In this document: positions 1 to 16,051 of the stretch, in pieces
Position numbering within the stretch: the stretch's first letter is position 1
How the letters are laid out: each line of letters starts with the position of its first letter
Translations under genes and position numbers: made by a program
From: an uncultured beta proteobacterium
GTDB lineage: Bacteria > Pseudomonadota > Gammaproteobacteria > Burkholderiales > Rhodocyclaceae
Direction of reading: 5' to 3'
DNA: 19,283 bases
NCBI GenBank assembly: GCA_903910495.1
Contig: CAIVZW010000230.1
Coordinates: forward strand, 1-19,283
Notes under the pieces: generated by a model
Told to the model about the DNA's origin: nothing
Seen by the model: the letters and a program-made list of their open reading frames with translations, nothing else
The model's database searches: none

Positions 1-1545
1 ATTGACCAGACCCTGCCGCAACTGCTCAGCCGCATTTCAAAACAGGTCGACATGCGCTTCGAACTTGACGGCCCCAATCTCGCCGTCATGCCGGACACGC
101 CCTATCTCAAGAGTTACAAGATCGACTACGTCAACATGTCTCGCGATGTCAGCGGGACGGTATCCACCAATACCCAGATATCCACTAGTTCGCTATCAAC
201 CACTGGAGCAGCTACTGGAGGGGCTGGTGGGAATGTATCCCGCATCAGAATCGAAAACACTTCAAAAAATCGTTTCTGGGAATCCCTTGAGAAAAACCTT
301 AAGGATCTGCTGCACGAAACCGACAAGATTTTCCCTGAGGGCTCGACGGAAACGGTGGTAGAGCAAAACACATCACAAAGCACAACCGGTACCGGAGTAG
401 CTTCACCTTCGATCAATGCAGCCCGTGGCAGTCAGGTTAACCAGAACCTGGCTGGCAGTCCGAATCCTGCAGCCATTCAGAACACCGGCGCTTCGGTGGT
501 AAAACGAATGACCTTCCGCGAAGCCGCCTCGGTAATTTCCAGTCCGGAGTCGGGAGTCATCACGGTCCGCGCCACTTCGCGGCAACACGAAAAAGTGCAG
601 GAATTTGTTGATCGAGTGATGAGCAGCGCCCGGCGCCAAGTTTTAATTGAAGCGACCATTGTCGAAGTTCAGCTCTCTGATGGATACCAGCAAGGTATTG
701 ATTGGAGCCGCATGGTTGATGGCAAGACCCCATCATCAACCACGCTGCCGTCAACCGGCACACCGGGTTTCACGCTCTCCCAACCTACCACTGGCCAGAA
801 TGTCACCAATTCAGTTACACCCTTTGTCTTTTCTTATTTCAACAAAAACAACCCTCTTAACCTTCTTACAACGGTCAGCCTTCTAGAGTCCTTTGGCAAT
901 CTTAAAGTCATCTCGAGTCCGAAACTGACCGTACTAAATAACCAGACGGCAACCCTCAAAGTCACAGAGGAATTTGTCTATTTCAACGTCAAGTCGGATA
1001 TTGCTGCTGGCAACCTCACCACAAATGCAACAAAAGCTTTTACGACCACACCGCAATCCGTCTCGGTCGGTTTCTTTATGAGCCTGACCGCGCAAATCAG
1101 TGACAACGACACCGTCACGCTGAACGTCCGCCCGTCGATTTCCAGCATTTCCCAATTGAAACAGGATCCCAATCCTGACTTAGCCGGTATCCAGAACCTG
1201 GTACCGCAAATCCGAACCCGCGAAATCGAGTCAATGATGCGCATTGAAAGCGGCGACATCGCAGTACTCGGGGGACTTATGCAAGACTCGATGGACAATA
1301 ATACCGGTCGAACCCCCGGACTGGGTTCGATTCCATTTTTCGGAGAACTGCTGAATAAACGCTCCAACGCTTCTACGAAAAGCGAGTTGGTTATCTTTAT
1401 CCGTCCAACGATCATCAAGGACGCCTCAATCAACGGCGATTTCACGAACTTCGCCAACTCATTGCCAAACAGGGATTTCTTCAAGCCTGACAAGGTTTTT
1501 CAACCCTTCTCTGTACCCCACCAGACCCAGGAGCCGCTTAAATGA
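1..1545 (+). CDS. mshL: MSHA-type pilus secretin MshL, 3' part (5' end outside window)
   Basis: This is the C-terminal 514 residues of an outer-membrane secretin, the ring channel through which the pilus fibre leaves the cell. The reading frame is open from base 1, so the gene starts upstream and the first internal ATG at 52 is not the real start. Visible parts are a Ser/Thr/Gly/Asn-rich stretch (about nt 150-480), a short secretin N-domain with a VLIEATIVEVQL core (about nt 640-680), and the beta-barrel region with the secretin signature VPQIRTRE (nt 1201-1224), an AVLGGLMQD motif and the GLGSIPFFGELL motif, ending in the usual ELVIFIRPTII strand. These match MshL/PilQ/GspD secretins, and the neighbouring mshE and mshG genes favour MshL. 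The stop overlaps the next start as ATGA, suggesting coupled translation. By eye the gene is clearly more AT-rich than the gene after it. Confidence 0.92.
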   Translation: MDQTLPQLLSRISKQVDMRFELDGPNLAVMPDTPYLKSYKIDYVNMSRDVSGTVSTNTQISTSSLSTTGAATGGAGGNVSRIRIENTSKNRFWESLEKNLKDLLHETDKIFPEGSTETVVEQNTSQSTTGTGVASPSINAARGSQVNQNLAGSPNPAAIQNTGASVVKRMTFREAASVISSPESGVITVRATSRQHEKVQEFVDRVMSSARRQVLIEATIVEVQLSDGYQQGIDWSRMVDGKTPSSTTLPSTGTPGFTLSQPTTGQNVTNSVTPFVFSYFNKNNPLNLLTTVSLLESFGNLKVISSPKLTVLNNQTATLKVTEEFVYFNVKSDIAAGNLTTNATKAFTTTPQSVSVGFFMSLTAQISDNDTVTLNVRPSISSISQLKQDPNPDLAGIQNLVPQIRTREIESMMRIESGDIAVLGGLMQDSMDNNTGRTPGLGSIPFFGELLNKRSNASTKSELVIFIRPTIIKDASINGDFTNFANSLPNRDFFKPDKVFQPFSVPHQTQEPLK

Positions 1546-2804
1546 GCTTGCTCATGGAAGCGCTCAAGAAGGCCGAGGAAGCCAAGCGACTGGCCAGCGA
1601 GGGCCATGCTCCAGGGCTGGCGCCGGCCGCGCAGCCCGAGTTGACGCTCAAGGCGATGGCGCAACCGGCGGACAGTTCCAGGCCCCCGCCACTGACCCCA
1701 CCCGGCTCACCACTGCCGCTTCTCTCGCAGCACATCGATTCCGTCGACGCCGATCTGGCGGCCGTATCGACGGATGCGCCGGTCAAGCGTCGTGCCTCTG
1801 CGTCCGCGCCGCCTCCCGCCGACAACAACCCGCGCGAAACCGCCGAGCGCATCGCCGTCCGTAACGTCTTTGCTGCGAAGCAGGCCCCCGCATCGCGTAC
1901 CGGGCTGTGGCTCATTCTTGGCCTCGCCGGGATATCCGCAGCGGGATTCGGCGCCTACGTCTGGTGGCAGTTGCAGGGTGTTTCCGGCAGTTCGCTGGCG
2001 CGCCCGCTGCAAGCCCTGCCGGCTGTCCAACCAATCCCTCCGCTGCCGCCCGTCGTTTCATCGCAGACCGTCAGCGGAGCGCTACAGCCGCTGCCGGAAA
2101 GCCAGCCCGCCCCGATGGTTTCGGCCCAGAAACCGGCCTCCGGGCCGGCACCGGCAACGACCTTCGAGCGGTCGCCACGCGCACAGCGGCCGCTAGCGGC
2201 GCAGGACAGCCCACTGCGGCTCAGCAGGGGCGCATCCAAGTCAGGTCAGACCATAGAGCACGCCTATGAGGCCCTGCAGTCCGGCCATCTGGAGGAAGCA
2301 CAAGTCGGCTACGAACAGGTGTTGCGTAATGACGCAAAAAGCACCGATGCCCTGCTCGGCATGGCGACCATCGCCGCCCGCCAGGGGCAAGCGGAACGCG
2401 CCCAGGCGTTTTACCTGCTGGCCCTCGAATCCGACCCCAACGATGCCACCGCCCAGGCCGGGGTGATCAACACGCGCGGGCAAGCCGACCCCGGTCTTTC
2501 CGAAAGCCGGCTGAAAACGGCACTGGCCAGCCAGCCGGATTCTGCGGCCCTGCAGTTCACCCTGGGCAACCTCTATGCCCGCCAGAACCGCTGGAGCGAG
2601 GCGCAGCAGGCCTATTTCAAGGCCTATTCGAGTACACCGGAGAATGCGGATTTCATCTTCAACCTGGCGGTCAGCCTCGATCACCTGCATCAGAACACGC
2701 TGGCCGCACAGTACTACCAGATGGCCCTGAAAACGGCAGAAACGAGACCCATCTCGTTTGACAAGAACCAGGTCAAAACCCGCGTCCTTGAACTGCAGCC
2801 GTGA
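1542..2804 (+). CDS. Membrane-anchored TPR protein in the MshN position of the pilus operon
   Basis: This is a 420-residue bitopic inner-membrane protein. The N-terminus MSLLMEALKKAEEAKR is a charged amphipathic helix typical of pilus and secretion accessory proteins. It is followed by a Pro/Ala-rich cytoplasmic linker, one transmembrane helix (about residues 121-143, with WW near its end), a second Pro-rich linker on the periplasmic side, and at least four TPR-like helix pairs from about residue 237 to the end (for example SGHLEEAQVGYEQVL and NRWSEAQQAYFKAY). Its place between the secretin and the MshE ATPase is that of MshN in Vibrio MSHA loci. The sequence does not resemble Vibrio MshN closely enough for me to use the symbol. 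A role in secretin assembly or in linking secretin and inner membrane is inferred from the topology. It begins inside the mshL stop codon (ATGA). Confidence 0.82.
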   Translation: MSLLMEALKKAEEAKRLASEGHAPGLAPAAQPELTLKAMAQPADSSRPPPLTPPGSPLPLLSQHIDSVDADLAAVSTDAPVKRRASASAPPPADNNPRETAERIAVRNVFAAKQAPASRTGLWLILGLAGISAAGFGAYVWWQLQGVSGSSLARPLQALPAVQPIPPLPPVVSSQTVSGALQPLPESQPAPMVSAQKPASGPAPATTFERSPRAQRPLAAQDSPLRLSRGASKSGQTIEHAYEALQSGHLEEAQVGYEQVLRNDAKSTDALLGMATIAARQGQAERAQAFYLLALESDPNDATAQAGVINTRGQADPGLSESRLKTALASQPDSAALQFTLGNLYARQNRWSEAQQAYFKAYSSTPENADFIFNLAVSLDHLHQNTLAAQYYQMALKTAETRPISFDKNQVKTRVLELQP

Positions 2805-2894
2805 TTCTGGCACGCTCTTACCGTCTTCCATCGCGTTTGCTCCAACGGTCATGGATTTGGCGCCACTCCACATTATGAAAGTTGCTGGCCTGCC

Positions 2895-2960
2895 CGTTAC
2901 CCTCACCCCCGGCCCCTCTCCCACAAGGCGAGGGGAGGTTCGCGAGTCGCAGACGCGACT
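2895..2960. repeat. Intergenic palindromic element (two inverted repeats) ahead of mshE
   Basis: The 173-base gap between the TPR gene and mshE is the longest untranslated stretch in this operon. It carries a C-rich block reading CCCTCACCCCCGGCCCCTC, whose CCCCTC (2913-2918) pairs with GAGGGG (2930-2935). A second hairpin, AGTCGC (2945-2950) with GCGACT (2955-2960) around an AGAC loop, follows. From memory, similar CCCTCACCCC...GCCCCTCTCCC blocks occur as dispersed intergenic repeats in many proteobacteria; I cannot count copies here. There is no T-tract after either hairpin, so they are not typical terminators, but they may alter mRNA stability between the two halves of the operon. Confidence 0.5.
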
Positions 2961-2977
2961 TTCACGCTAAATCAACG

Positions 2978-4684
2978 ATGAACGCTCCCGTACGCCACCA
3001 GCGACAACTTGGCCAGGTTCTGATTGCCAAGGGCATTCTCAGCGAGGATCAGCTGCGCATTGCCCTGCTCGAACAGATGAAGTCCAACCAGCCGGTCGGC
3101 AAACTGCTGGTTTCGCTCGGTTTCGTTTCCGAAGCCACCTTGCGCGACGCGCTCTCCGAAAGCCTCGGCAAGCAGAGCATCGATCTCTCCAACGCCATTA
3201 TCGACCCTTCGGCGCTGGCGCTGGTGCCGCGTGAGCTGGCCAAACGCCACCACCTGCTGCCTCTCGACTACGATGCCGAGCATCAACGGCTGACGGTCGC
3301 ACTGTCGGACGTCAACGACATCGTCGCGCTCGACAAGATCCGCGGACTGGCCGGCGACGCCCTCGAGATCGACACCCTGCTCGCCGGCGAAACCGAAATC
3401 GACCGGGCCATTGATCAGTCCTATGGTTACGAGCTGTCGATCGACGGCATCCTGCACGAGATCGAAACGGGGGAAATCGATTTCCGCGGCCTGCAATCTT
3501 CTGCCGACGAGTACAGCCAGCCGGTCGTCCGGCTGATCGACTCGATCCTGACCGACGCCGTAAAGCGCGAATCCTCCGACATTCACTTCGAGCCGGAAAC
3601 CGGCTTCCTGCGCATCCGTTACCGCATCGACGGCATGCTGCGCCAGGTGCGTTCGCTGCACCAGTCCTACTGGCCGGCCATGGCGGTGCGCATCAAGGTC
3701 ATGAGCGGCATGAACATCGCCGAAACGCGGGCGCCGCAGGACGGCCGCATCTCGCTCAACATGCGTGGCCGGCCGATTGATTTCCGCGTTTCGGCGCAGC
3801 CGACGATTCACGGCGAAAACATTGTCCTGCGTATTCTGGACCGCCAGAAAGGCCTCGTTCCGCTTGAAGGTCTGGGGCTGACCGAAAAGCAGCTGGACCA
3901 GCTCAAGCTGATGATCGCCCGCCCCGAAGGCATCATCCTGGTCACCGGCCCGACCGGCAGCGGCAAGACGACAACGCTCTATTCGGTGCTCAACCACATC
4001 AACTCCGAGGGTCTGAACATCATGACCCTGGAAGATCCAGTCGAGTACCCGATGACCCTGGTCCGGCAAACGTCGGTGGCCGAAGCCGCCAAGCTCGATT
4101 TCGCCAACGGCATCCGCTCGATGATGCGCCAGGATCCGGATGTCATCCTGGTCGGCGAAATCCGCGACGAGGACACCGCCGAAATGGCCCTGCGCGCGGC
4201 CATGACCGGCCACCAGGTCTATTCCACCCTGCACACCAATTCGGCCATTGGCGCCATCCCGCGCCTGCTCGACATCGGCATCCTGCCCGACATCATGGCC
4301 GGCAACATCATCGGCGTCATTGCCCAGCGCCTGGTTCGCCGCCTGTGCCTGCACTGCAAAACGCCTTATCAGGCCGAAGCCCACGAAGCGCGCTTGCTGG
4401 GCGGGGCCGCGGAAACACCCCGCCCGGTCATATTCCGTCCTTGCGGCTGCGAACGCTGCGATTTCCAGGGCTATCGCGGCCGCCTGGCGATCATGGAGAT
4501 CCTGCGCATGAACGCCGACATGGACGAGTTGGTCGCCCGCCGCTGCACGGTCCGGGAAATCCGCCATCTGGCCGATCGTCAGGGCTTCGTCTCGCTCGCC
4601 GACGACGGTTTGCGCCGCGTTCTCGATGGCTCCACCTCGATCGAGGAACTCGGCCGCGTGGTCGACCTGACCGACCGGATGTAA
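2978..4684 (+). CDS. mshE: MSHA pilus extension ATPase MshE (GspE/PilB family, MshEN domain)
   Basis: This is the cytoplasmic hexameric ATPase that powers pilus assembly. I chose the ATG at 2978 (568 residues) because it puts the first conserved motif about ten residues in; a TTG at 2882 would add translated repeat sequence. Residues about 10-65 form an MshEN domain with two tandem motifs (RxLGxxLxxxGxxxxxxLxxALxxQ, then VGKLLVSLGFVSEATLRDAL), the fold known to bind c-di-GMP in Vibrio MshE. The core has Walker A GPTGSGKT (324-331, Lys330), the Walker B region DPDVILVGEIRD (Glu394) and a zinc-type tetracysteine arrangement (C457xxC460 and C491xxC494). No clear Shine-Dalgarno precedes the chosen ATG. 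The stop lies three bases before mshG. Confidence 0.95.
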   Translation: MNAPVRHQRQLGQVLIAKGILSEDQLRIALLEQMKSNQPVGKLLVSLGFVSEATLRDALSESLGKQSIDLSNAIIDPSALALVPRELAKRHHLLPLDYDAEHQRLTVALSDVNDIVALDKIRGLAGDALEIDTLLAGETEIDRAIDQSYGYELSIDGILHEIETGEIDFRGLQSSADEYSQPVVRLIDSILTDAVKRESSDIHFEPETGFLRIRYRIDGMLRQVRSLHQSYWPAMAVRIKVMSGMNIAETRAPQDGRISLNMRGRPIDFRVSAQPTIHGENIVLRILDRQKGLVPLEGLGLTEKQLDQLKLMIARPEGIILVTGPTGSGKTTTLYSVLNHINSEGLNIMTLEDPVEYPMTLVRQTSVAEAAKLDFANGIRSMMRQDPDVILVGEIRDEDTAEMALRAAMTGHQVYSTLHTNSAIGAIPRLLDIGILPDIMAGNIIGVIAQRLVRRLCLHCKTPYQAEAHEARLLGGAAETPRPVIFRPCGCERCDFQGYRGRLAIMEILRMNADMDELVARRCTVREIRHLADRQGFVSLADDGLRRVLDGSTSIEELGRVVDLTDRM

Positions 4685-4687
4685 GCC

Positions 4688-5890
4688 ATGTCGCTCTACA
4701 ACTACAAGGCAGTCGGCCCCGATGGACGCACGGTGCTTGGCCGCATCGACGCGCTCAACATCGTCGATCTCGAGATGCGTCTGCGGCGCATGGAACTCGA
4801 CCTGATCAGCGGCGATCTGGTCAGCAACCGCAGTCTGTTCGGTGCCGCCGGCGTACCGCGCCGCGAGATCATCCACTTCTGTTTTCACCTCGAACTCCTG
4901 GTGCGTGCCGGTGTGCCCATCCTGGAAGGCCTGTCGGACCTGCGCGACAGCCTTGAACACCCGCGCTTTCGTGAAGTGGTGGCCAGCATGATCGAGTCCA
5001 TCGAGGGCGGCCAGCGGCTTTCACAAGCCATGGAAGGCCAGTCGAAAGTCTTCAACAAGGTCTTTGTCAGCCTGATCCGCGCCGGCGAAGCCACCGGCCG
5101 CTTGCCCGAAGTGCTGCAGAATCTGACCGAATCCCTGAAGTGGGAAGACGAACTGGCCTCGCAGACCAAGAAACTCATCATGTATCCGGCCTTTGTCGGC
5201 ACGATCGTTCTCTCGGCCACCTTCTTTCTGATGATCTACATGGTGCCGCAGCTCAAGCAGTTCGTAAAAAACATGGGGCAGGTTCTGCCCTTGCAGACCC
5301 AGGTGCTGTTCTTTATATCCGACTTGCTGGTGGCCTACTGGTATGTCGCCCTGCTGCTGCCTGTCGTGCTCGGCTTCGCGCTGAAAGTGCTGCTCCATAT
5401 CAACCCGCTGGCGCGCGTCCACTTCGACGGGGTCAAGCTGAAATTACCGCTTATCGGCGACATCCTGCGCAAGATCATCCTGTCGCGCTTCGCCAACACC
5501 TTTGCCCTGCTCTACTCTTCGGGCATCCCGATCATCGAATCGATCCGCACGACGCAGGACGTCGTCGGCAACCGCGTGGTAAGGCGCGGACTCGAACGCG
5601 TCGAACAACTGATCGGCGAGGGACAGAACGTCACCGCCGCCTTCCATAGCATCGGATTTTTCCCACCGCTGGTGATCCGCATGCTGCGCGTCGGCGAAAA
5701 CACGGGCTCGCTGGATGTCGCGCTGCTGAACGTCAGTTACTTTTATAATCGTGACGTCAAGGAATCGGTCGAAAAGGTACAGCAACTGATTGAACCCATG
5801 CTCACCGTCGTCCTCGGCTGCCTGCTCGGATGGATCATGCTGGCCGTCCTGGGGCCGGTTTACGACGTCATCAGCAAGATAAAAACCTAG
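4688..5890 (+). CDS. mshG: Pilus inner-membrane platform protein MshG (GspF/PilC family)
   Basis: This 400-residue polytopic inner-membrane protein is the platform on which the ATPase acts to load pilin into the fibre. It opens with MSLYNYKAVGPDGRTVLGRIDA, the usual start of GspF/PilC-type proteins. Two T2SSF four-helix cytoplasmic domains follow (about residues 60-165 and 265-365), each with the family's E-x-G-x-x-T/S-G-x-L turn (RAGEATGRLPEVL and RVGENTGSLDVALL). Hydrophobic spans lie at about 166-190, 207-237 and 367-395. The length is normal for the family. Only three bases separate it from mshE, and the pairing of E and G types supports the MSHA assignment. Confidence 0.95.
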   Translation: MSLYNYKAVGPDGRTVLGRIDALNIVDLEMRLRRMELDLISGDLVSNRSLFGAAGVPRREIIHFCFHLELLVRAGVPILEGLSDLRDSLEHPRFREVVASMIESIEGGQRLSQAMEGQSKVFNKVFVSLIRAGEATGRLPEVLQNLTESLKWEDELASQTKKLIMYPAFVGTIVLSATFFLMIYMVPQLKQFVKNMGQVLPLQTQVLFFISDLLVAYWYVALLLPVVLGFALKVLLHINPLARVHFDGVKLKLPLIGDILRKIILSRFANTFALLYSSGIPIIESIRTTQDVVGNRVVRRGLERVEQLIGEGQNVTAAFHSIGFFPPLVIRMLRVGENTGSLDVALLNVSYFYNRDVKESVEKVQQLIEPMLTVVLGCLLGWIMLAVLGPVYDVISKIKT

Positions 5891-5903
5891 CCGGGCAACG
5901 CCA

Positions 5904-7445
5904 ATGAAAACCAGCCGCCTGCTTTACCTCAGCGCCTACCAGATGACAGCCTACCGCTGGCATTCCGGTAAACTGACAAGTGAAGGGCTGTTCGCGGCGA
6001 CTGAGAGTGGTCATCAGCAGTTTGCCGCCTACCTCGGGCAGCATCGCAAGAGCGTTTTTGCCATCCTGGCCAACGTCTCCGAAGAAGGTTTCCAGATCGA
6101 GACCATCCCTTTTCTGCAGGGGGCGGATCGTCAGTCCATCATCCGCCGCAAACTCGGGCAACTGTTCTTCAACGCCGGACTGACCGCCTCGCTATCGATG
6201 GGCTACGAAAAGAACAAGCGCAAGGACGAGCGCATCATGCTCGCCGCGCTGACCAATAACGATTTTTTCACCCCCTGGCTGAAGGCTCTCGATGGCGCCG
6301 GGGTGGCCCTGGCCGGGATATACTCGCTGCCCTTGCTGGCACCGTCGCTGCTGAAGAAACTCCAGTTCGTCGAAGACCAGTGCTTGTTGCTCACCGTCCA
6401 GGATCAAAGCATCCGGCAAAGCTATTTTGAAAAAGGCGAACTGCATTTCAGCCGGCTCACGCCACTGCAAAACAGCAGCATTGGCGGCATTGCGCAAACC
6501 TTTGCCAGCGAGACGCACAAGCTCCAGCAATACCTCGCCAGCCAGCGTCTGATCGGGCGCGGCCAGCCGATCACGGCGCACATTCTGGCGCATCCCGGCG
6601 CACTGAAAACCGTCCAGAATAGTTGTATCAGCACCGAAACGATCCATTTCAACATTCTTAGCATCGAGGACTGCGCAAAAAAAACGGGGCTCAAGACCCT
6701 GCCGCTGGACTCCCATTGCGAACAACTCTTTCTCAATTTACTGGTCAGATCCCCGCCGCGCATCCAGTTTGCCAACGACAACCAGCGCCACAATTATCAT
6801 CTCGTAAAGATTCGTTCAGCACTCCACAGCCTTGGCGCGCTTGCCCTGCTGGGCTGCCTGCTGTTCTCCGGCAAACTGCTGTTCGAAACCTACTCCGTCA
6901 CCCAGGAAACCGACAAATTCAGAAGCGAAGCCGGCGTATCGCGACAACGCTACAACGATATCGTAAAAACCTTTCCTCCCATCCCGACCAATAACGAGAC
7001 TCTGCGCCGGGTCATCGACCGCTTTGTCGAACTGGACAAGAACAGTGCCACGCCCAACGGCCTCTACCACGAGATCAGCCGCGCCCTGCAGGCGGCTCCG
7101 TCGGCAGAGCTTGAGAGCATTGACTGGAAAGTGGGCAGCGCCGACACCGGCGCCGTCAAATCCGTCGGACAGTCGTCCATGGTCAGCGCCGTACCTAACG
7201 ATAGCGAATCGGTCGTCGTCCGCGGCAACCTGAAGCTCGGCCTCAATGCCAACCCGAGGCAGATGCTGAGCGCCTTCAATTATCTCGTCGAAGCGCTGAA
7301 AGCCAACCCGAAACTCAAAGTCGACGTCCTGCAAAGGCCGTTTGATATCGAATCCGGAAAATCACTCAAGGGCGGCGATACCACCGTCGAAGACAACAAG
7401 CCGCGTTTTTTCAGCCTGCAGATCACCCGAAAGCTAGGATCATGA
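5904..7445 (+). CDS. PilM/PilN-like fusion protein, MshI position
   Basis: This 513-residue protein has a cytoplasmic N-terminal half that resembles the divergent actin-like (GspL/PilM type) fold, including the stretch ALDGAGVALAGIYSLPLL. One membrane helix (about residues 303-326, SLGALALLGCLLFSGKLLFE) is followed by a periplasmic coiled-coil-prone and ferredoxin-like part, as in PilN. In MSHA systems MshI combines these two roles. Here the gene follows mshG and precedes a PilO-like protein, so it probably forms the inner-membrane alignment complex. I recognise the architecture but not a close named relative. There is no strong ribosome site before the ATG at 5904. Its stop overlaps the next start as ATGA. 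Confidence 0.72.
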   Translation: MKTSRLLYLSAYQMTAYRWHSGKLTSEGLFAATESGHQQFAAYLGQHRKSVFAILANVSEEGFQIETIPFLQGADRQSIIRRKLGQLFFNAGLTASLSMGYEKNKRKDERIMLAALTNNDFFTPWLKALDGAGVALAGIYSLPLLAPSLLKKLQFVEDQCLLLTVQDQSIRQSYFEKGELHFSRLTPLQNSSIGGIAQTFASETHKLQQYLASQRLIGRGQPITAHILAHPGALKTVQNSCISTETIHFNILSIEDCAKKTGLKTLPLDSHCEQLFLNLLVRSPPRIQFANDNQRHNYHLVKIRSALHSLGALALLGCLLFSGKLLFETYSVTQETDKFRSEAGVSRQRYNDIVKTFPPIPTNNETLRRVIDRFVELDKNSATPNGLYHEISRALQAAPSAELESIDWKVGSADTGAVKSVGQSSMVSAVPNDSESVVVRGNLKLGLNANPRQMLSAFNYLVEALKANPKLKVDVLQRPFDIESGKSLKGGDTTVEDNKPRFFSLQITRKLGS

Positions 7446-8059
7446 AACTCGGCACCGCTGATCTCCCCAAACTGCAGTTCAGCCTGCTGGCGGCGGTGCT
7501 GATGATGGCCCTCGGTGCCGGCAGTGTCTTTATCGCGCAGGGCTCGACCAAGGCGGCCAAACGCGACATGGCGGTGGCACACAGCGAACGCAACGAATTT
7601 GACGGGAAACTCAGGCGCGTAAGCAGCGAAGAAAACGAAATCAAGCAGAAATCGGCCTTGTTCAACACGCTGCAGACACGTGGCGTGATCGGTGAAGAAC
7701 AGCGGCTCGAATGGGTCGAATTGCTCAAGGAGATCCGTGACAAACGGCGCCTGATCGACCTGCAATACGAAATCGCTCCGCAACGTCCGCTCGATACGGT
7801 GCCTGGAAGTGGATTCGCCTATTTCGCCAGTACCATGAAAGTGCAGCTCAAGCTATTGCACGAGGAGGACCTGATGCGACTCATCGACGACCTGCGTCAG
7901 CAGGCCAGGGCGCTGATCCAGGTCAAAAGTTGCAGCGTCTCCCGCCTGCCGCGCGGCAGTGCCGACGGCGGGACCAACGCCCAGTTGCTGGCCGACTGCC
8001 AGATTGACTGGGTTACGGTGCACGAAGTCGCTAAAAAACAGGAGGGGCCCCTCCGATGA
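7442..8059 (+). CDS. PilO-like inner-membrane alignment protein, MshJ position
   Basis: This 205-residue bitopic protein has a short cytoplasmic N-terminus, one transmembrane helix at about residues 12-34 (SLLAAVLMMALGAGSVFIAQ) and a charged helical coiled-coil stretch (about 40-100). A compact C-terminal periplasmic domain contains two cysteines, Cys164 and Cys186, that could form a disulfide. This is the layout of PilO/GspM/MshJ proteins, which pair with the PilN-like partner encoded just upstream. The assignment rests on topology, size and position and not on recognised signature residues. It overlaps both neighbours by ATGA junctions, and its last codons contain the palindromic ribosome-binding region of the next gene. 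Confidence 0.68.
   Translation: MKLGTADLPKLQFSLLAAVLMMALGAGSVFIAQGSTKAAKRDMAVAHSERNEFDGKLRRVSSEENEIKQKSALFNTLQTRGVIGEEQRLEWVELLKEIRDKRRLIDLQYEIAPQRPLDTVPGSGFAYFASTMKVQLKLLHEEDLMRLIDDLRQQARALIQVKSCSVSRLPRGSADGGTNAQLLADCQIDWVTVHEVAKKQEGPLR
8041..8054 (+). promoter_or_regulatory. Shine-Dalgarno inside a perfect 14-base palindrome
   Basis: The sequence GGAGGGGCCCCTCC is its own reverse complement and contains the strong GGAGG ribosome site for the gene starting at 8056. In RNA it could fold as GGAGG-GGCC-CCTCC and hide the ribosome site. Ribosomes finishing the upstream gene would melt this hairpin, which would enforce coupled translation. The effect is inferred. Confidence 0.5.
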
Positions 8060-8526
8060 ATATATTCCTGCTCCCGACCAGAAATGGCGCACGCCTTGCC
8101 GGGCTGCTTTGCACCTTTGCCGTGCTGGCCTCGCTATCCCCGAAGCTGGTTGCCGAAGAAGAACTCGGCCGTCTGTTTTTTACGCCCGAACGCCGGCAGA
8201 ACCTTGACCGCCAGCGGCTGCTCAATATTCAGGAAAAGCAGGAAATCCCTGAAGAGCCGACATTCACCATCAACGGCCTGGTCACGCGCAGCAGTGGCAA
8301 GCGTACGACGTGGATCAACGGCGTGTCGCAAAACGAAAACGAAACGCAAAGCGGCGTCAGCGTCACCCCGAAACGCAAGGAACCGGGCAAGGTCATTGTC
8401 CAGTCCAGCGAATCGCCAACGTCGAATGCCAGCGTCGGCGATACGGTCAACCGTAATACCGGCGAAGCCACTGACCTGCTCAACGGCGGCCGGATCAGCA
8501 TTCGTAGTGCCGTGCCGGCAAAATAG
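8056..8526 (+). CDS. Small periplasmic PilP/MshK-like pilus protein
   Basis: This 156-residue exported protein has a signal peptide of about 34 residues (Arg near the N-terminus, hydrophobic LAGLLCTFAVLASLSP, then LVAEEE). The mature start LGRLFFTPERRQNLDRQR is a motif I associate with betaproteobacterial pilus clusters. A short conserved core, FTINGLVTRSSGKRTTWING, resembles the small beta domain of PilP/MshK-type proteins, followed by a Ser/Thr/Asn-rich, probably flexible tail. Proteins of this type connect the PilN/PilO-like pair to the secretin. It starts within the stop codon of the PilO-like gene. The function is inferred from size, export signal and position. Confidence 0.62.
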   Translation: MNIFLLPTRNGARLAGLLCTFAVLASLSPKLVAEEELGRLFFTPERRQNLDRQRLLNIQEKQEIPEEPTFTINGLVTRSSGKRTTWINGVSQNENETQSGVSVTPKRKEPGKVIVQSSESPTSNASVGDTVNRNTGEATDLLNGGRISIRSAVPAK

Positions 8527-8540
8527 ACAGCGGACCGATA

Positions 8541-11135
8541 GTGCCCGGGAATACCCCTTCTTGCGGTCGCTGGCGTCAAGCGTTGCGGCAAAGGCAGCAG
8601 GGAGCCGCTCTGCTGCTTATTTTTCTTATTGCCATGACAATTGGGCTGGCCCTTTTCTTCAGGCCTGGCGATGGCGGTAGCGGCGGCTATGCCCGCGAGC
8701 AGGGCAGTGAAAACGTCCTGGTGCAGGCCAGGGACGCGCTGATCGGCAAAGCGGCTGCGGAGCGAAACAACTCACTTTTTGGTTTTCTCCAGGTTCCCGA
8801 TCTGGGCAGTACCCGGAACTCAACGCCGAACGAAGGCGAAAGCGCCGGCAATTTCACCGGAAACGTACAGAATCTTTCGGTGGTCGGCCGGCTTCCGTGG
8901 CGGACACTTGGTGAAGCTCCGCTCAAGGACACCAATGGTGAGTGCCTGTGGTACGCCGTTTCAGGTTCTGCCAAATCTGCCTCGCCACCGGACGTCTTCA
9001 ATTGGGATTCGCTCGGCCACTTTGATCTTTTCACGTCCGACGGCACCCCGGCCGGCACGGTCAGCAGCCTGGCCGGCAACTACCACGCCCGGCCGCTGGC
9101 GATCATCTTTTCTGCCGGACCGCTGCTCGCCGGGCAAAACCGCAGCACTTCAGCGACAGACACGGTCAGCGAATGTGGCGGCAATTACGACGTGCGCAAC
9201 TATCTGGACTCCTACACCGCCGACGCCAACATCAACAGCATCGTCAACTATTTTTCGGGTTCCACCAACAATTCCACCGGCGACGCCTCGCTACTGGCCT
9301 CACCCAAGGCGCTGATCAATGGCAACGTCGATATCGTGGCGGACGGCAACAAGGCTAGGCTGGCCAATGACCGCTTGCTGACCATCACCGCCAGGGACAT
9401 CTTTGACCTCGTCAAGAAGCGCAGCGATTTCAAATCCGATATCGACACGCTGCTCAACGATCTTGCGGCCTGCCTCAACACCATTCCGTCAACGTCATTG
9501 CCGGTGGCCTCCAGCCTGAGCAACAAGGGCATTGACACCATCATCGCCGCCTGCCCGGCGCCAACAACCACGAATGCGGCCATTCTGGCCAACTGGAAGG
9601 ACAATCTGCTTTACGCGGGTGGCCCTGCCGGCAATTTCACCGTCAGCAACAGCGCTGCTGCATGCAAGGCGGTCCTGATTTTTGGCGGCGAGCGAACCGC
9701 CCGGACGGTGGCGCCGCTGACCGCACAGTCCCGTGCCACTCCGGCCCAGAAGGGGGACAACGCGAACTACGGTGATCCCGCCATGTACCTCGAAGGCGCC
9801 AATGCCACACAGTTCCCGAACAACGGAGCCTACATCGGCGCCGCCTATTACGCGACTGGCGCGCCCAGCGCCGACGTCGTGCGCTGCATCACCGGTGCCG
9901 GCGCCGCGCAGGTTTCGTTTGCCACTGACTTGCCGAATTTTGTCGCGGCGGGAGCCACGCCGTCGATTACAACTAGCTCCGCTGACAACAGCGTGACCAT
10001 CACCGACAATGCCGCCGGCACAGCCGCCAGCTGCTTCTGGTCGCCGGCTCCTATCCCGCTCGCCGGCAAGACCCTGCGCGCCTATTACGAATACCGCTTT
10101 GGCTATGCCGACACCTATGCCACCACCGGCGCACCCGCCGACCGGGGTAACGGCATGGTCTTTCAACTGGTGCGCGGCGACATCCCGAATGCCTTCGGCA
10201 TGGCCTCCCCTCCGAACACCTGCGGCACCGAGACAAACCTTGGCGCGCTCGGTGCGACCGACATCTGGGGCAGCTTCTCCTACATCGTTGAGACCGATGT
10301 GCGGCGCAACGCCACCAACGACCCGGCGGGGAATCATACCGCCATCATGCTCAACGGCAGTCTCGCTCACGCGGCCGGCGAAACGCAAACGGCCACTGCG
10401 ACCATCCCATGCAACGGCAGCAAGAGCAGTTGCCTCCACTATCCCGAAAACACCTTCGAGGAATCACCAAACCCGCGGGCGCACAATCAGCGCATCGAGA
10501 TGCATACCGGCTGCAACGCGACGTGTTCCCGCTGCAACCCCAGCGGCAGCGATGGCTACGCAAAAATCAGCGCCTGGGTCGATTGCACCGATTGCAGCGA
10601 CGTCTCCGCTGATTTCGGCAGTTCCGAACTCATCATCAACGTGGCGAACCGCGATTTCAGTGCTTCCGGGGACTGGGCCGGAAGCAAGTGGTCATGGTCG
10701 GCCAGTGCCTTCAACCACACGGCGGGGGCAAACGCCGCCACACTCCCGAACGCAGCGCTGGCTGCGCCCCCGACAGTCGGCACCTCCTACCGGGTCGCCA
10801 TCACGCTCAGCACCACCGCCCCCGGAAGCATCGCCATTACGTTTGGCGGAAACACGACAGGCCTTCTTGCTCAAGCCGTCGGCACGGCAAGCTACAACGT
10901 TCAGTTCGATCCGGTTTCGGCCGCCGCGCTGAGCCTGACCCCCGACGCCGCGTGGGAAGGCAGCATCAGCAGTGCGAGTATCCGCGCCGTCACGCCACCG
11001 AACATCAACCGCTGCGTGCCCCTCTACGACCCCGAAATGCGGCAGGCGTTTTTCGGTATCCATGCCGGATTCCTGTCCACGCCGGACACGGTCCAAAGCG
11101 TCACCCTTAAAAACCTGTATCTGCGCAGCGATTGA
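8541..11135 (+). CDS. Giant PilX-like prepilin with a C-terminal lectin-like region (candidate tip adhesin)
   Basis: This 864-residue protein begins with a prepilin-like segment: basic leader RQRQQG, then AALLLIFLIAMTIGLALFF, with no Glu at position +5, as in GspK/PilX-type minor pilins. The GTG at 8541 is the listed start; a TTG at 8583 would give a typical seven-residue leader. Residues about 60-470 form a large domain including GRLPWRTLG...LWYAVSG and SECGGNYDVRNYLDSY. From about residue 470 the pattern fits an L-type lectin: FW-x-P-x-P-L, GNGMVFQLV (about 535-543), VETDV (Glu584, Asp586) and NDPAGNH (593-599), then the closing strand FFGIHAGFL...LYLRSD at the end. A second beta-sandwich module (about 700-815) and a cysteine cluster (624-685) lie in between. 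I infer a non-polymerising tip subunit that binds glycans. Confidence 0.7.
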   Translation: MPGNTPSCGRWRQALRQRQQGAALLLIFLIAMTIGLALFFRPGDGGSGGYAREQGSENVLVQARDALIGKAAAERNNSLFGFLQVPDLGSTRNSTPNEGESAGNFTGNVQNLSVVGRLPWRTLGEAPLKDTNGECLWYAVSGSAKSASPPDVFNWDSLGHFDLFTSDGTPAGTVSSLAGNYHARPLAIIFSAGPLLAGQNRSTSATDTVSECGGNYDVRNYLDSYTADANINSIVNYFSGSTNNSTGDASLLASPKALINGNVDIVADGNKARLANDRLLTITARDIFDLVKKRSDFKSDIDTLLNDLAACLNTIPSTSLPVASSLSNKGIDTIIAACPAPTTTNAAILANWKDNLLYAGGPAGNFTVSNSAAACKAVLIFGGERTARTVAPLTAQSRATPAQKGDNANYGDPAMYLEGANATQFPNNGAYIGAAYYATGAPSADVVRCITGAGAAQVSFATDLPNFVAAGATPSITTSSADNSVTITDNAAGTAASCFWSPAPIPLAGKTLRAYYEYRFGYADTYATTGAPADRGNGMVFQLVRGDIPNAFGMASPPNTCGTETNLGALGATDIWGSFSYIVETDVRRNATNDPAGNHTAIMLNGSLAHAAGETQTATATIPCNGSKSSCLHYPENTFEESPNPRAHNQRIEMHTGCNATCSRCNPSGSDGYAKISAWVDCTDCSDVSADFGSSELIINVANRDFSASGDWAGSKWSWSASAFNHTAGANAATLPNAALAAPPTVGTSYRVAITLSTTAPGSIAITFGGNTTGLLAQAVGTASYNVQFDPVSAAALSLTPDAAWEGSISSASIRAVTPPNINRCVPLYDPEMRQAFFGIHAGFLSTPDTVQSVTLKNLYLRSD

Positions 11136-11326: not shown

Positions 11327-12109
11327 ATGCCGACAGGACATTTCTCATCCCGGCTGAGCTACCGAGATGAAACAATCACCATCCGACCCGCTCAGAGCGG
11401 CTTCACGCTGGTCGAACTGACCATTGTTCTGGTCATTGTTGCGCTGCTTCTGGGCGGCATGCTGATGTCTCTAACCACCCAGCAGGACATTGCAAACGGC
11501 AAGGAAACGGAGAAGCGCCTGAATGACTTCCGTGATGCGCTCCTTGGATTTGCTACGGCTCAACAACGGCTGCCTTGTCCGGCGATTGCAGGAGCTACCG
11601 GTATCGAAAGCCCGGCGGGCGGAGGCGCATGCACGAATAACTTCAGCGGGTTTCTTCCGGCCATCACTCTGGGCGTCACCCCGACAGACACCCAGGGCTA
11701 CGCCATTGACGCATGGGGCAATCGTGTCAGATATGCGGTCACCAACGCCAACGCCAATGCCTTCACCACAACCAGTGGATTGAGAACGGCCTGGGCCATC
11801 AACCCGGCGACAATCCAGCCTGATCTTCGTGTGTGCAACACGGCTGCAAACATTACCAATCCCGATACGGCCAGCGCCGACTGCCCGGCCACGGACCAGA
11901 TGACCAACACGGCCGTGGCCATTGTCTTCTCAACCGGAAAGAACGGAGCAGCTGCTCCCGGAGGAGCCGACGAACTTGCCAACTGGACTTCGTCCAACGA
12001 CCGCGTATTCGTAAACACCTTGCCGAGCGCGAGCTTTGACGATCTCCTTGTCTGGCTTTCCCCCAACATCCTGTATAACCGGCTGATTTCTGTCGGTCGC
12101 CTGCCCTAG
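11327..12109 (+). CDS. Prepilin-type minor pilin
   Basis: This 260-residue pilin-like protein carries the classic prepilin motif QSG/FTLVELTIVLVIVALLLGG, with Glu at +5 after the predicted prepilin peptidase cut. The leader from the ATG at 11327 is 25 residues, long for type IVa pilins, and has no clear ribosome site. An ATG at 11367 would give a short leader, but it is in another frame. The globular part contains LPCPA, GFLPAITLGV and DAWGNRVRYAV, echoing motifs of the giant prepilin upstream, and several cysteines (CPAI, GGACT, RVCN, ADCPAT) that may form disulfides. It is probably a minor or priming pilin acting with the giant prepilin. Confidence 0.85.
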   Translation: MPTGHFSSRLSYRDETITIRPAQSGFTLVELTIVLVIVALLLGGMLMSLTTQQDIANGKETEKRLNDFRDALLGFATAQQRLPCPAIAGATGIESPAGGGACTNNFSGFLPAITLGVTPTDTQGYAIDAWGNRVRYAVTNANANAFTTTSGLRTAWAINPATIQPDLRVCNTAANITNPDTASADCPATDQMTNTAVAIVFSTGKNGAAAPGGADELANWTSSNDRVFVNTLPSASFDDLLVWLSPNILYNRLISVGRLP

Positions 12110-12203: not shown

Positions 12204-13481
12204 ATGAGCGATCAACGCGGCTTTCTCGATGGCTTCCGCAATGCCGGAATCCTGCCGACCGACTCCGAAGAATTGCGCCTGCAGAAATCTCTGCTGATTT
12301 TTGCGACCGGCCTGATCAGCTTCGCCTCAATGTTCTGGCTGTTCATCTACTGGCAGCTCGGGCCGCAATTCTCATCGACCATCCCCTTCCTGTTCCAGTT
12401 GCTGCTGGTCGGCAATCTGGTGGTTTTCCTGAAAACGCTCAATTTCGACGGCTTCCGCCTGATCCAGCTGTCACTGTTTCTGTTCGTGCCCTTTGTCGCC
12501 CAGTGGAGCATGGGCAACTTCATTTCTGCCAGCGGCGTCAGCCTGTGGGCGCTACTGGCGCCGATTGGCGCCGTGCTGGTGATCGGCGCCAGAGAGGCCC
12601 TGGCCTGGTTCATTGCCTATCTTTTTCTCACTGCGCTTTCCGGCAGTTTTGACTATTACCTCGCCGATTCGCTGACCTCTGCACAACTGAAGGTACCGAC
12701 GCAGACCACGGTGTTCTTCTTCGCCCTCAATTTTGCCGCAGTGTCGACCATTGTCTTCCTGCTGCTGCGTTACTCGGCTATCGAGAAGCAGAAAACGCAA
12801 GCGCGCCTCGAAGTCGCACACCAGCAACTGCAGATCGAACAGGATCGCTCCGAGCGACTGCTCCTCAACATTCTTCCGGGTTCGATTGCCGAGCGGCTGA
12901 AGAACAGCAACCAGACCATTGCCGATGGATTTGCCGATGTTTCCGTGATGTTTGTCGACATCGTCAACTTCACCCGCATTGCCGAAGGCTTGAACCCGCA
13001 AGAGGTTTTCTCGATGCTCAACATGGTTTTCTCTTCGTTTGACGAACTCGCGGAAAAGTTCGGGCTGGAGAAAATCAAAACGATAGGCGATGCCTATATG
13101 GTTGCCGGAGGCCTGAACGACGAGCGCAGCGACTATTCCGAGGCGCTGGTCGATATGGCGCTGGAAATGCGCGACCTGCTGAAGCGCGACTTCCATATCA
13201 ACCACATGCATCTTGAAGTACGCATCGGCATTGGTACCGGGCCGGTCGTGGCCGGCGTGGTGGGCAAGAAGAAATTCATTTACGACCTGTGGGGCGACAC
13301 CGTCAATATTGCCAGCCGCATCACCAGCGAAGGTGTTCCCGGCATGGTGCAGGTCGATGAAACGACCTACCGGCGACTGCTGCAGCACTTTGATTTCCAC
13401 GCGCCGCAAACCATCCACCTCAAGGGCAAGGGCAACATGGTGGTGTACCGCGCCATCGGCCGCAAGGCCTACGACTGCTAG
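12204..13481 (+). CDS. Membrane-bound class III adenylate cyclase
   Basis: This 425-residue protein has about six transmembrane helices (residues ~28-190), a short coiled-coil linker containing the cyclase lead-in SERLLLNILPGSIAERLK, and a class III catalytic domain (about 240-425). Metal-binding aspartates are Asp252 (VMFVDIVNFT) and Asp296 (IGDAYM). Substrate-choice residues are Lys292 (KIKTIGD) and Asp361 (YDLWGD), the Lys/Asp pair of ATP-specific enzymes and not the Glu/Cys pair of guanylate cyclases. Asn368 and Arg372 (NIASR) are the transition-state residues. All catalytic positions are present, so it should form active homodimers that make cAMP. The stimulus sensed by the membrane part is unknown. 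It sits between pilin genes, suggesting a link between pili and cAMP signalling. Confidence 0.9.
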   Translation: MSDQRGFLDGFRNAGILPTDSEELRLQKSLLIFATGLISFASMFWLFIYWQLGPQFSSTIPFLFQLLLVGNLVVFLKTLNFDGFRLIQLSLFLFVPFVAQWSMGNFISASGVSLWALLAPIGAVLVIGAREALAWFIAYLFLTALSGSFDYYLADSLTSAQLKVPTQTTVFFFALNFAAVSTIVFLLLRYSAIEKQKTQARLEVAHQQLQIEQDRSERLLLNILPGSIAERLKNSNQTIADGFADVSVMFVDIVNFTRIAEGLNPQEVFSMLNMVFSSFDELAEKFGLEKIKTIGDAYMVAGGLNDERSDYSEALVDMALEMRDLLKRDFHINHMHLEVRIGIGTGPVVAGVVGKKKFIYDLWGDTVNIASRITSEGVPGMVQVDETTYRRLLQHFDFHAPQTIHLKGKGNMVVYRAIGRKAYDC

Positions 13482-13501: not shown

Positions 13502-15238
13502 CTACTGCGTTCGTCCCTGCGCCGCTATCCGCCGCAATTCGAAGCCGACCTGCCCGGCCACATTGCTCGCCAACCGGAGTTCGTAGCCGTAACGCTCGGC
13601 CTGCCTGGCGGCGTGATAGAGCCCGATGCCGAAGCCGTTTTCCGACGCTACCGGCGAGTGGAACAGATCATCGACAACAGCCTTGCTGACCACGCTGCCG
13701 TTGTCACAGACCCTGAGCACGGCCGCATCGGCCGCCAACGTCACACGCACGACCAGGCCATTTTCGCCCTGACGCTTGAGCCGCGCGTTGTGCAGGAGAT
13801 TGTCCGCGACGCTGTCGTAGAGTGCCGCCGGCAGACGCGCCGCCTTGTCGAACACGACCGGACTGAAAACAATGTCGTCATGCGCGTAACGTTGCCTCAG
13901 CGTATTCCACCAGACCGTGGCCAGCGCATGCACACCCACTCCGGCGATCTCGCCTTGCGGCGCCTGCAACTTCTCCAGTGTCTGCTGCAGACGTTGCGTG
14001 ATCTGTGGTAACTGCCGCTGCATGAGCTGATTGAGGCGCACGCCATCGCTGTCATCCGGCGCCTGCGCCATGAAACAAAGATTGTTCAGGGACTGCAGCA
14101 GGTTTTTTACATCGTGCGTCAGACGCGCACCGGTTTCATGCACGGCGCGCAGATAACTCATCTGCTGGAACTCGCGCGCACTCTGCTTGGCGATGTAGTA
14201 CTCGTTGGTCAGCTGTGACAGCAGATGGAAATGCCAGATCAGCGATGGACTCAGTTTGTGGCGCGTAAACAGGGTCAGCACCAGCGGCCGGCTGGGGAAG
14301 TCCTGGCAATAATTCGACTCCTGCCCAAAGCGTCCCGAACCTGCCTCGGCACCGCTGGCGGGCGACCAGGCCCCACCCGCGACCCACGGCAACTCAAGCA
14401 TGCCCTCGAAAGCGGCGGATAAAAACTGGTCGGGATCACTCTCGCGCTCGGCGCATTCCATCAGCCGTTGCAGCCATGTTTCAAAGGGCAGGCCGATGGT
14501 CAGCAGGTAGCGGGACAGGAAGACGCCGATGCCGCTGAATCCCGGCCGCGGATTCCACGCCCAGGCAATGAGCAGCAGCATGCCGGCAATCGACACCAGC
14601 GTCTTGAACACCGCTTCGATATACAGGGTTTGGCGCAACAGCATGAACGCCAGGCTGCCCAGCACCAGCACGGAAATCAGCAGAGCGACGAACAGGCTGT
14701 AGAAAAAATCGACCATGCCGTCACTGGGCAGGCGAATCTCCTGCGGGCGCGGCATCAGCAGCATGACGACAAACAGCAGCGGGGCCGTCCAGGCAAAGGG
14801 GATATCCAGCGAAGGACCGATCAGCGCCACATCGGGTACCACCCTGGGCACCAGCCAGACCAGCAGCGCGCACAGCAGATAGGCAAAAGCCAGCAGGTAG
14901 AAAATGCGTGTCGGCTGATGGCCGAGCAGCAACACCCGCCCGCCGAGCAGTGCGGCCAGCACGACCACCCAGAGAATCAGCAGCCACCAGCCAAACAGCC
15001 ACGCCCCGCCGACCAGCAGTACCACGATCAGCAGCAGGCTGTTAACCCCGAGTTTGCGCTCGGCCTGAATGAAGGGCTGCCAGATCAGGAACAGGCCGAC
15101 GTCAACGAGCCAGAACATCAGGCTGACGGCAGAACTCACGCCGGCCAGCAAGGTCACGTGCAGAACCACCAGCAGGGCGATCAGCACCCAGCGCTGCCGC
15201 TCCCTGAGAAAGCTCCCGAACTGCCCTAAAGCCGTCAT
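13502..15238 (-). CDS. Multi-TM sensor histidine kinase without adjacent response regulator
   Basis: I chose the ATG at 15238 (578 residues) over a TTG at 15262 because an AGGAG ribosome site lies just upstream of it. The N-terminal half has about eight hydrophobic helices. A degenerate GAF-like segment (about 270-350) follows. The phospho-acceptor region is GARLTHDVKNLLQSLNNL with His375; this HDVKN form resembles PrsK-type kinases more than the common HELRTP form. The ATPase part has an N box (DNLLHNARL), a G1 box (VCDNGS) and a G2 box (NGFGIGLYHAARQAERYGYEL). It converges on the cyclase gene with only 20 bases between stops and diverges from the sigma-54-type pilin gene. No response regulator is in the window. 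A role in controlling the pilin is inferred from position. Confidence 0.87.
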   Translation of the reverse strand: MTALGQFGSFLRERQRWVLIALLVVLHVTLLAGVSSAVSLMFWLVDVGLFLIWQPFIQAERKLGVNSLLLIVVLLVGGAWLFGWWLLILWVVVLAALLGGRVLLLGHQPTRIFYLLAFAYLLCALLVWLVPRVVPDVALIGPSLDIPFAWTAPLLFVVMLLMPRPQEIRLPSDGMVDFFYSLFVALLISVLVLGSLAFMLLRQTLYIEAVFKTLVSIAGMLLLIAWAWNPRPGFSGIGVFLSRYLLTIGLPFETWLQRLMECAERESDPDQFLSAAFEGMLELPWVAGGAWSPASGAEAGSGRFGQESNYCQDFPSRPLVLTLFTRHKLSPSLIWHFHLLSQLTNEYYIAKQSAREFQQMSYLRAVHETGARLTHDVKNLLQSLNNLCFMAQAPDDSDGVRLNQLMQRQLPQITQRLQQTLEKLQAPQGEIAGVGVHALATVWWNTLRQRYAHDDIVFSPVVFDKAARLPAALYDSVADNLLHNARLKRQGENGLVVRVTLAADAAVLRVCDNGSVVSKAVVDDLFHSPVASENGFGIGLYHAARQAERYGYELRLASNVAGQVGFELRRIAAQGRTQ

Positions 15239-15296
15239 CACCGGTCTCCTGGAACTGACCAAAGCCCGTCATCAAAACCCCGTGGCGGTTCAATCC

Positions 15297-15418: not shown

Positions 15419-16051
15419 ATGAACAAACAACAATCGGGTTTCACGCTGGTAGAAATTGCCATTGTACTCGTCATCATCGGCCTGCTGCTCGGCGGCGTGC
15501 TGAAGGGGCAGGAACTGATCAACAGCGCAAAAGTCAAGAACATGGCCAGCGATTTCCGCAACGTTCCCTTGTTTATCTACGGTTACCAGGACAAGTACAA
15601 GCGCCTGCCCGGTGATGACGAAGGCGCTGTCGCGCGCTGGGGTGCAATCACGGCCAACGGTGACAAGAACGGGACAATCGGCGGCACTTGGGACTCGGTC
15701 GCTCTGGCTGATGAAACTGTTCGCTTCTGGCAGCATATTCGCCTGGCGAATCTTGCCGCCGGCTCAACCGACTTTTCGACGATCGCCAGCGCAAGTCTTC
15801 CGACCAACGCCGAAGGCGGGAAAATCGGGATTCAGATGACACCCCCGATCAGTGGAATGTCAGGCACCTACTATGTGTGTTCCCAGAACATTCCGCGCCT
15901 GACGGCTGAACAGCTTGACATCACGCTTGACGATGGCAACGGCGCGACGGGCGCCCTCCGCGGGCAAGTGGGCGGCGCCACCGATCCCGCTGCCGTAGGC
16001 GTTGCCTATGCCGCGCCAAACCAGACCTATACCGCTTGTATGGCCTTCTAG
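15419..16051 (+). CDS. Type IV pilin, probable major-type subunit
   Basis: This 210-residue protein has a short leader MNKQQSG, prepilin cleavage before Phe8, Glu at +5 (FTLVEIAIVLVIIGLLLGG), then KGQELINSAKVKNMASDF. This is the usual start of a group of proteobacterial pilins with a Y-x-D-x-Y-x-x-LPGDD stretch (here YQDKYKRLPGDD). Cys154 and Cys207 bracket the C-terminal loop and could form the D-region disulfide that stabilises pilins and often contacts surfaces. Because it has its own sigma-54 promoter and its own terminator, it is a single-gene unit, as expected for an abundant subunit. Whether it polymerises with the MSHA-type machine encoded nearby is inferred from proximity. Confidence 0.9.
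   Translation: MNKQQSGFTLVEIAIVLVIIGLLLGGVLKGQELINSAKVKNMASDFRNVPLFIYGYQDKYKRLPGDDEGAVARWGAITANGDKNGTIGGTWDSVALADETVRFWQHIRLANLAAGSTDFSTIASASLPTNAEGGKIGIQMTPPISGMSGTYYVCSQNIPRLTAEQLDITLDDGNGATGALRGQVGGATDPAAVGVAYAAPNQTYTACMAF

Follow-up and report, generated by a model that had tools for sequence, protein, structure and literature searches.

The lectin-pilin is a prepilin without Glu5

The window analysed here is a stretch of 19,283 nucleotides from an uncultured environmental betaproteobacterium of the Rhodocyclaceae, probably related to Accumulibacter (contig CAIVZW010000230.1, forward strand). It carries genes resembling those of the mannose-sensitive haemagglutinin (MSHA) type IV pilus and, among them, a long open reading frame (ORF) that we call the lectin-pilin gene. 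Its product combines a predicted pilin at the N-terminus with a legume-type lectin at the C-terminus, arranged as follows.

8541..11135, + strand: lectin-pilin gene (GTG start, 864 residues, single open frame)
8541..8603, + strand: leader peptide, residues 1-21 (cleavage predicted to follow G21, QRQQG^AALLL)
8589..9416, + strand: pilin module, residues 17-292 (in the model a long N-terminal helix, 22-39 and 46-73, then a pilin-like core)
9417..9899, + strand: extra subdomain, residues 293-453 (common to lectin-less relatives, whose ends fall near residue 450)
9900..10625, + strand: N-terminal part of the legume-type lectin domain, residues 454-695
10149..10151, + strand: N537, at the position where plant lectins have the Asp that contacts sugar from loop A (alignment to peanut lectin and 7elv)
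10290..10337, + strand: metal-site stretch E584-x-D586 ... N590 ... D594-P-x-x-x-H599, aligned to peanut lectin
10626..10994, + strand: inserted beta-rich module within the lectin, residues 696-818 (strands in the model)
10995..11132, + strand: closing strands of the legume-type lectin domain, residues 819-864 (the structural match ends at 864; weak second stretch of the 7elv profile)

A search with the protein returned 139 homologues at E<=0.001; conservation is given below for an alignment of 121 rows unless otherwise stated. The lectin-pilin ORF itself matched no family in Pfam or NCBIfam scans. A class III signal peptide with Gly at position -1, followed by a hydrophobic helix, was recognised in the sequence and the model. 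Of the 121 rows, 111 have Gly at the cleavage-site residue G21 and 10 have a gap, so that every row reaching this position has Gly. Mature position 5 (residue 26, within the QQGAALLL motif at 19-26) is not Glu; in the family it is most often L, I, V, M or A. The prepilin-type N-terminus lacking Glu5 that the original prediction had described was thus confirmed. Pfam N_methyl, which we take to be the Pfam counterpart of IPR012902, matched neither the lectin-pilin ORF nor ten relatives or 40 homologues, and the assignment as a prepilin therefore relies on the homologues and on the adjoining paralogous pilin, pil2.

Profile-profile alignment with hhalign placed the pilin module (residues 17-292 of the N-terminal half, or body) against nearly the whole pil2 family over 218 columns (99.5% probability, E 2.3e-22). 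A hidden Markov model (HMM) of the body, built from the window and 72 loci, matched pil2 in many loci, with E down to about 1e-15. These matches identify the body as a pilin and a paralogue of pil2, with the subdomain 293-453 added; Glu5 is invariant in pil2 (28 rows) and absent from the body. Judged by these alignments, the N-terminal half shares ancestry with the neighbouring Glu5 pilin. The predicted body model is of high confidence (predicted local distance difference test score 90.4, predicted template modelling score 0.87). The model, including subdomain 293-453, had no fold match in the PDB, so the likeness to GspK depends on the missing Glu5.

The C-terminal half adopts a predicted legume-lectin fold with a conserved metal-site motif

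Structural comparison of the predicted model gave a concanavalin A (ConA)-type beta-sandwich spanning the whole C-terminal domain. The three motifs on which a lectin had first been proposed are present: GNGMVFQLV at 536-544, VETDV at 583-587 and NDPAGNH at 593-599. PF00139 and PF18483 did not match the window protein, and of 40 homologues, five gave weak PF00139 matches, the best at E 0.0042; a profile link to a PF00139 protein had E 1.2e-8. We regard a legume-lectin fold on a modular pilin as almost certain. As a separate observation, L100:6246-7169 in a related genome encodes a bacterial legume lectin that matches PEP-CTERM weakly and may be a relative of the lectin module.

Residues of the Mn/Ca type (E, D, N, D, H) occur in legume-lectin order in the sequence alignment. 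Conservation is high at E584 (117 of 121 rows), D586 (118), D594 (116), N598 (121) and H599 (118), and E, D, D and H are found together at 584, 586, 594 and 599 in 112 of the 118 gap-free rows. A gapless alignment of the family profile with peanut lectin places the motif His at H599 and the motif Asn at N590, the positions that coordinate Mn and Ca in legume lectins. Position 590 is D, N, S or T in most relatives, and the N590-D594 loop of the window protein, counted by hand, is one residue shorter than that of peanut lectin. The metal site was originally drawn with N598; E584, D586, D594 and H599 stand in the proposed order, and the Asn is N590 by the peanut lectin alignment. N598 is invariant, yet falls off any ligand position in that alignment.

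The position expected to contact sugar is different. The plant-type Asp of loop A is replaced by N537, and the family has Asn in 88 rows, Tyr in 25 and Asp in only 2. In the long class of loci this position is E, D, G, P, S, T, F, L or I. The expectation that the lectin would tell which surface is bound is not supported by this position, and we rate the chances of metal-dependent glycan binding by this domain at about even. A doubtful but serious alternative is that the lectin fold was kept while sugar binding was lost, the ligand being a protein, a nucleotide or a hydrophobic compound, or the domain stabilising a tip complex with pil2. The rarity of the loop-A Asp and its variation in the long class fit this explanation, as does the fact that fold stability alone can preserve metal residues. 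A constant metal site beside a variable sugar-contact position is, however, also expected if glycan specificity has diversified, and 11 of 80 related loci lack the lectin domain, which those genomes therefore do not require for assembly.

The lectin-pilin family is modular

The loci compared were the best 80, by similarity to the query, of 254 genome-contig stretches, so fractions among them are no population estimates. Some ORFs among them end at contig ends, and two loci from one assembly (L019 and L061) may be two halves of one gene. Searches with the HMMs found body and lectin in one ORF in 64 loci and the body alone, stopping near residue 450, in the 11 lectin-less ones. Of the remaining five, three are cut by a contig end, one (L029) encodes the lectin in a neighbouring frame and one (L076) is ambiguous.

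A further layer of variation lies within the lectin itself. Of the 121 homologues, 47 have an insert of at least 60 residues at 696-818, and most short lectin-pilins among the aligned genome loci have only 2-3 residues there. The lectin domain of Rhodocyclus gracilis DSM 110 (L041) is one that lacks the insertion. In three homologues (P0033, P0036 and P0037) it reaches about 250 residues, roughly double the length, and by eye contains two copies. The module at 696-818 gave no PDB sequence match and no consistent Pfam match; it may be a second binding module. One long relative (L091, 772-4656, - strand) carries E1_FCCH repeats (E 3.2e-21), apparently within a part that reads by eye as a putative lectin, and another (L033) has a weak match to the same family (E 0.043). 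Five loci without a lectin match (L093, L094, L095, L096 and L097) have long inserts that follow the pilin core and precede the last part of the body, and no Pfam family matched these inserts.

The lectin-pilin family recurs in Rhodocyclaceae-type genomes, including Accumulibacter. Across 199 genomes of the family to which the Rhodocyclus gracilis locus belongs, at least 55 had a lectin match at E<=0.001, a lower bound because L091 escaped the lectin HMM. At most 158 had a body match, a figure raised by pil2-type pilins, which match as well; by eye, about 100 of the 199 reach E<=1e-60 for the body. In 150 genomes of the order of the R. gracilis locus, three had a lectin match, one of them the secreted-type L100 protein.

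The lectin-pilin gene lies in an MSHA-like gene cluster

The other genes of the filament system in the window are the following.

52..1545, + strand: MshL-like secretin (Pfam Secretin; NCBIfam MshL at 244.0 bits, just under the cut-off of 250.2)
1542..2804, + strand: tetratricopeptide repeat (TPR) protein, MshN-like by position (TPR families)
2882..4684, + strand: MshE-like extension ATPase with an N-terminal cyclic di-GMP (c-di-GMP) motif domain (T2SSE)
4688..5890, + strand: MshG/GspF-like inner-membrane platform protein (T2SSF)
5904..8526, + strand: g5, g6 and g7, three small genes at the position of PilM/N/O/P-type alignment proteins (synteny in the loci)
11327..12109, + strand: pil2, Glu5 pilin (QSGFTLVEL), paralogue of the pilin module (N_methyl, E 2.1e-7)
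15419..16051, + strand: pil3, Glu5 pilin (N_methyl, E 9.8e-8)

The secretin, the TPR protein, the ATPase with its c-di-GMP motif and the platform protein recall the MSHA pilus operon. MshL was the best secretin model for the window secretin, and the MshE-related c-di-GMP motif NF053729 scored 57.5 bits in the ATPase against an NCBIfam cut-off of 38. The products of g5, g6 and g7 matched no Pfam family and, from their position, may serve as alignment proteins; pil3 is possibly the major pilin. Unlike the MSHA operon, with MshL/E/G and MshO/P/Q, the Pfam-scanned genes of the window, which starts inside or just before mshL, include no DUF6701 (MshQ-type) protein. Such a protein was found in seven of eight related genomes, on another contig or more than 100 kb from the lectin-pilin gene. 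Four DUF6701 regions were read, and two of them (L086 and L087, the latter from the same genome as L029) have adjoining prepilins that we take to be MshO- and MshP-like. From the MshL and MshE results and the DUF6701 set elsewhere, we consider the system in the window best described as MSHA-like, distinct from the canonical MSHA set.

Tip minor pilins of the GspK, PilX and PilK types lack Glu5, have a hydrophobic N-terminal helix and bear an additional domain on their pilin core; the lectin-pilin is like them in all three respects. Neither a sequence nor a fold match to GspK was obtained for it, and pil2 is the nearest pilin demonstrated. The filament could instead be a type II-like secretion pseudopilus, with the lectin-pilin as a short periplasmic or outer-membrane tip recognising secreted glycosylated substrates. 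The machinery does score with GspE, GspF and GspD models, and K subunits without Glu5 cap such complexes according to PMC9934059. We consider this explanation unlikely, since the GspE, GspF and GspD scores are far under their cut-offs while MshL is the top secretin model and the MshE-related motif passes, and the matches shown for the scanned window genes include neither a GspC nor a GspM family.

Two further genes lie between pil2 and pil3: an adenylate/guanylate cyclase gene (12204-13481; PF00211, E 1.2e-55) and, on the opposite strand, a gene with an HATPase_c match (13502-15262). Both recur in several related loci, which suggests signalling linked to the filament. Genes 3' of pil3 encode SIS-CBS, HAD-hydrolase, LptC-type and LptA-type proteins, and would correspond to kdsD-kdsC-lptC-lptA.

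The lectin-pilin gene appears to be replaced on a constant machinery

The nearest machinery relative is Accumulibacter sp. bin_122 (L029), with a DNA identity of 92.9% over window positions 2976-8490. The match stops just before the lectin-pilin gene; within it the two share only a 93-base match (9998-10090, 71.0%), and similarity is regained at 11398, inside pil2, at 72.7%. Protein identities follow the same course: 99% for MshE, 98% for MshG, 94% for g5, 94% for g6 and 90% for g7, then 42% for the lectin-pilin body, 51% for the lectin and 61% for pil2. As pil2 also falls below the upstream genes, the exchanged stretch may extend into it. In a second relative (L006), the identities were 90% (MshE), 86% (MshG), 68% (g5), 64% (g6) and 68% (g7), and next in order 38 and 54%. 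Among 20 listed loci, body identity stayed at 33-42% whatever the machinery distance, and g5-g7 dropped with the machinery.

No second lectin-pilin copy was found in the genome of L029. The lectin-pilin of this genome is encoded in two overlapping frames (L029:5849-7989), a real break or an assembly error. Assembly error could account for part of the L029 divergence, but the contig is unbroken and the pattern recurs in L006, L061 and L070. Different alleles at one place are most simply explained by recombination or transfer.

The lectin-less state was mapped on a quick MshE+MshG tree (LG+G4, 57 rows, 10 of them lectin-less), which carried long-branch warnings. It required 7 changes, with gains and losses treated alike, the minimum forced by the starred branches. 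Shuffled states required 9.3 changes on average, and 7 of 500 shuffles were as low as the observed value. All three states together required 8 changes. Related bacteria retain the pilus machine and replace or drop the outer half of this subunit, which looks like an exchangeable attachment tip. We tentatively extend this, at somewhat below even odds, to a betaproteobacterial filament with one machine whose tip is swapped as a cassette in the manner of the receptor-binding tips of phage tails. The cassette would consist of a pilin lacking Glu5 and, optionally, a legume-type lectin with a non-canonical, possibly non-monosaccharide site. This lectin would host varied inserts, a beta-rich module in the window type and E1_FCCH-like repeats in at least one other, and exchange of the cassette would be driven by changing partners, prey, biofilm matrix or filament-targeting phages.

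Proposed function and comparison with known systems

We propose that the lectin-pilin is a modular minor pilin in an MSHA-like type IV filament. The MshE-type ATPase would extend this filament, perhaps in response to c-di-GMP, and the lectin-pilin, lacking Glu5 like GspK-type subunits, would cap it. The tip would then display the lectin and could attach to glycans on other cells, on biofilm matrix or on surfaces. Swapping or trimming the tip gene among relatives while the machine stays constant would re-target the same filament. A role as tip adhesin of the filament seems to us quite probable; nearly as much confidence attaches to the composite proposal of a modular minor pilin of an MSHA-like filament with a lectin-bearing tip for glycan attachment and an exchanged tip gene. 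The original observation is confirmed and its interpretation partly supported. That the C-terminal half is a ConA-fold glycosidase is very improbable: glucanases belong to the same fold superfamily, but none is among the top 50 structural entries or the other 50 rows listed, and the conserved acidic residues coincide with the metal site.

The domain resembles legume (L-type) lectins, including the archaeal Methanocaldococcus jannaschii domain 7elv, in fold over its whole length. The E-x-D and D-P...H letters align with peanut lectin, and in 7elv E-x-D and H align. It departs from these lectins in its loop-A Asn in place of Asp, its extra cysteines, its large insertion and its fusion to a pilin.

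A lectin on a prepilin is not without precedent, contrary to what had been suggested. PMC9934059 describes PilC of Streptococcus sanguinis as a glycan-binding pilin with a ConA-like lectin module; in both proteins this module is C-terminal on a type IV pilin, and a tip complex of few minor pilins is proposed for PilC as it is here. By the same account PilC retains Glu5, the Glu5-less PilA being separate, whereas here the Glu5-less pilin itself bears the lectin. PilC, from a Gram-positive organism, has an immunoglobulin-like module, in contrast to the legume-type lectin with Mn/Ca motif and inserted beta-rich module of the window protein. Grafting of a functional module onto a pilin is also a feature of the modular pilins surveyed in PMC8179133, which number over 1,200 in 264 architectures, lectin-like modules included, and were selected by the IPR012902 motif. 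As the survey, so described, required this motif and N_methyl is unmatched here, the lectin-pilin family would probably be missed by it. What is distinctive is the combination of a Glu5-less pilin, a legume-type lectin with a metal motif, an MSHA-like Gram-negative system and a gene replaced on a constant machine.

A Glu5-less pilin carrying a legume-type lectin in an MSHA-like operon is a direct, simply testable candidate. Exchange of the tip on a constant machine, if true, would explain differences in attachment among close relatives. In Accumulibacter, pili and other filamentous proteins have been associated with the formation of granules, according to PMC12019908.
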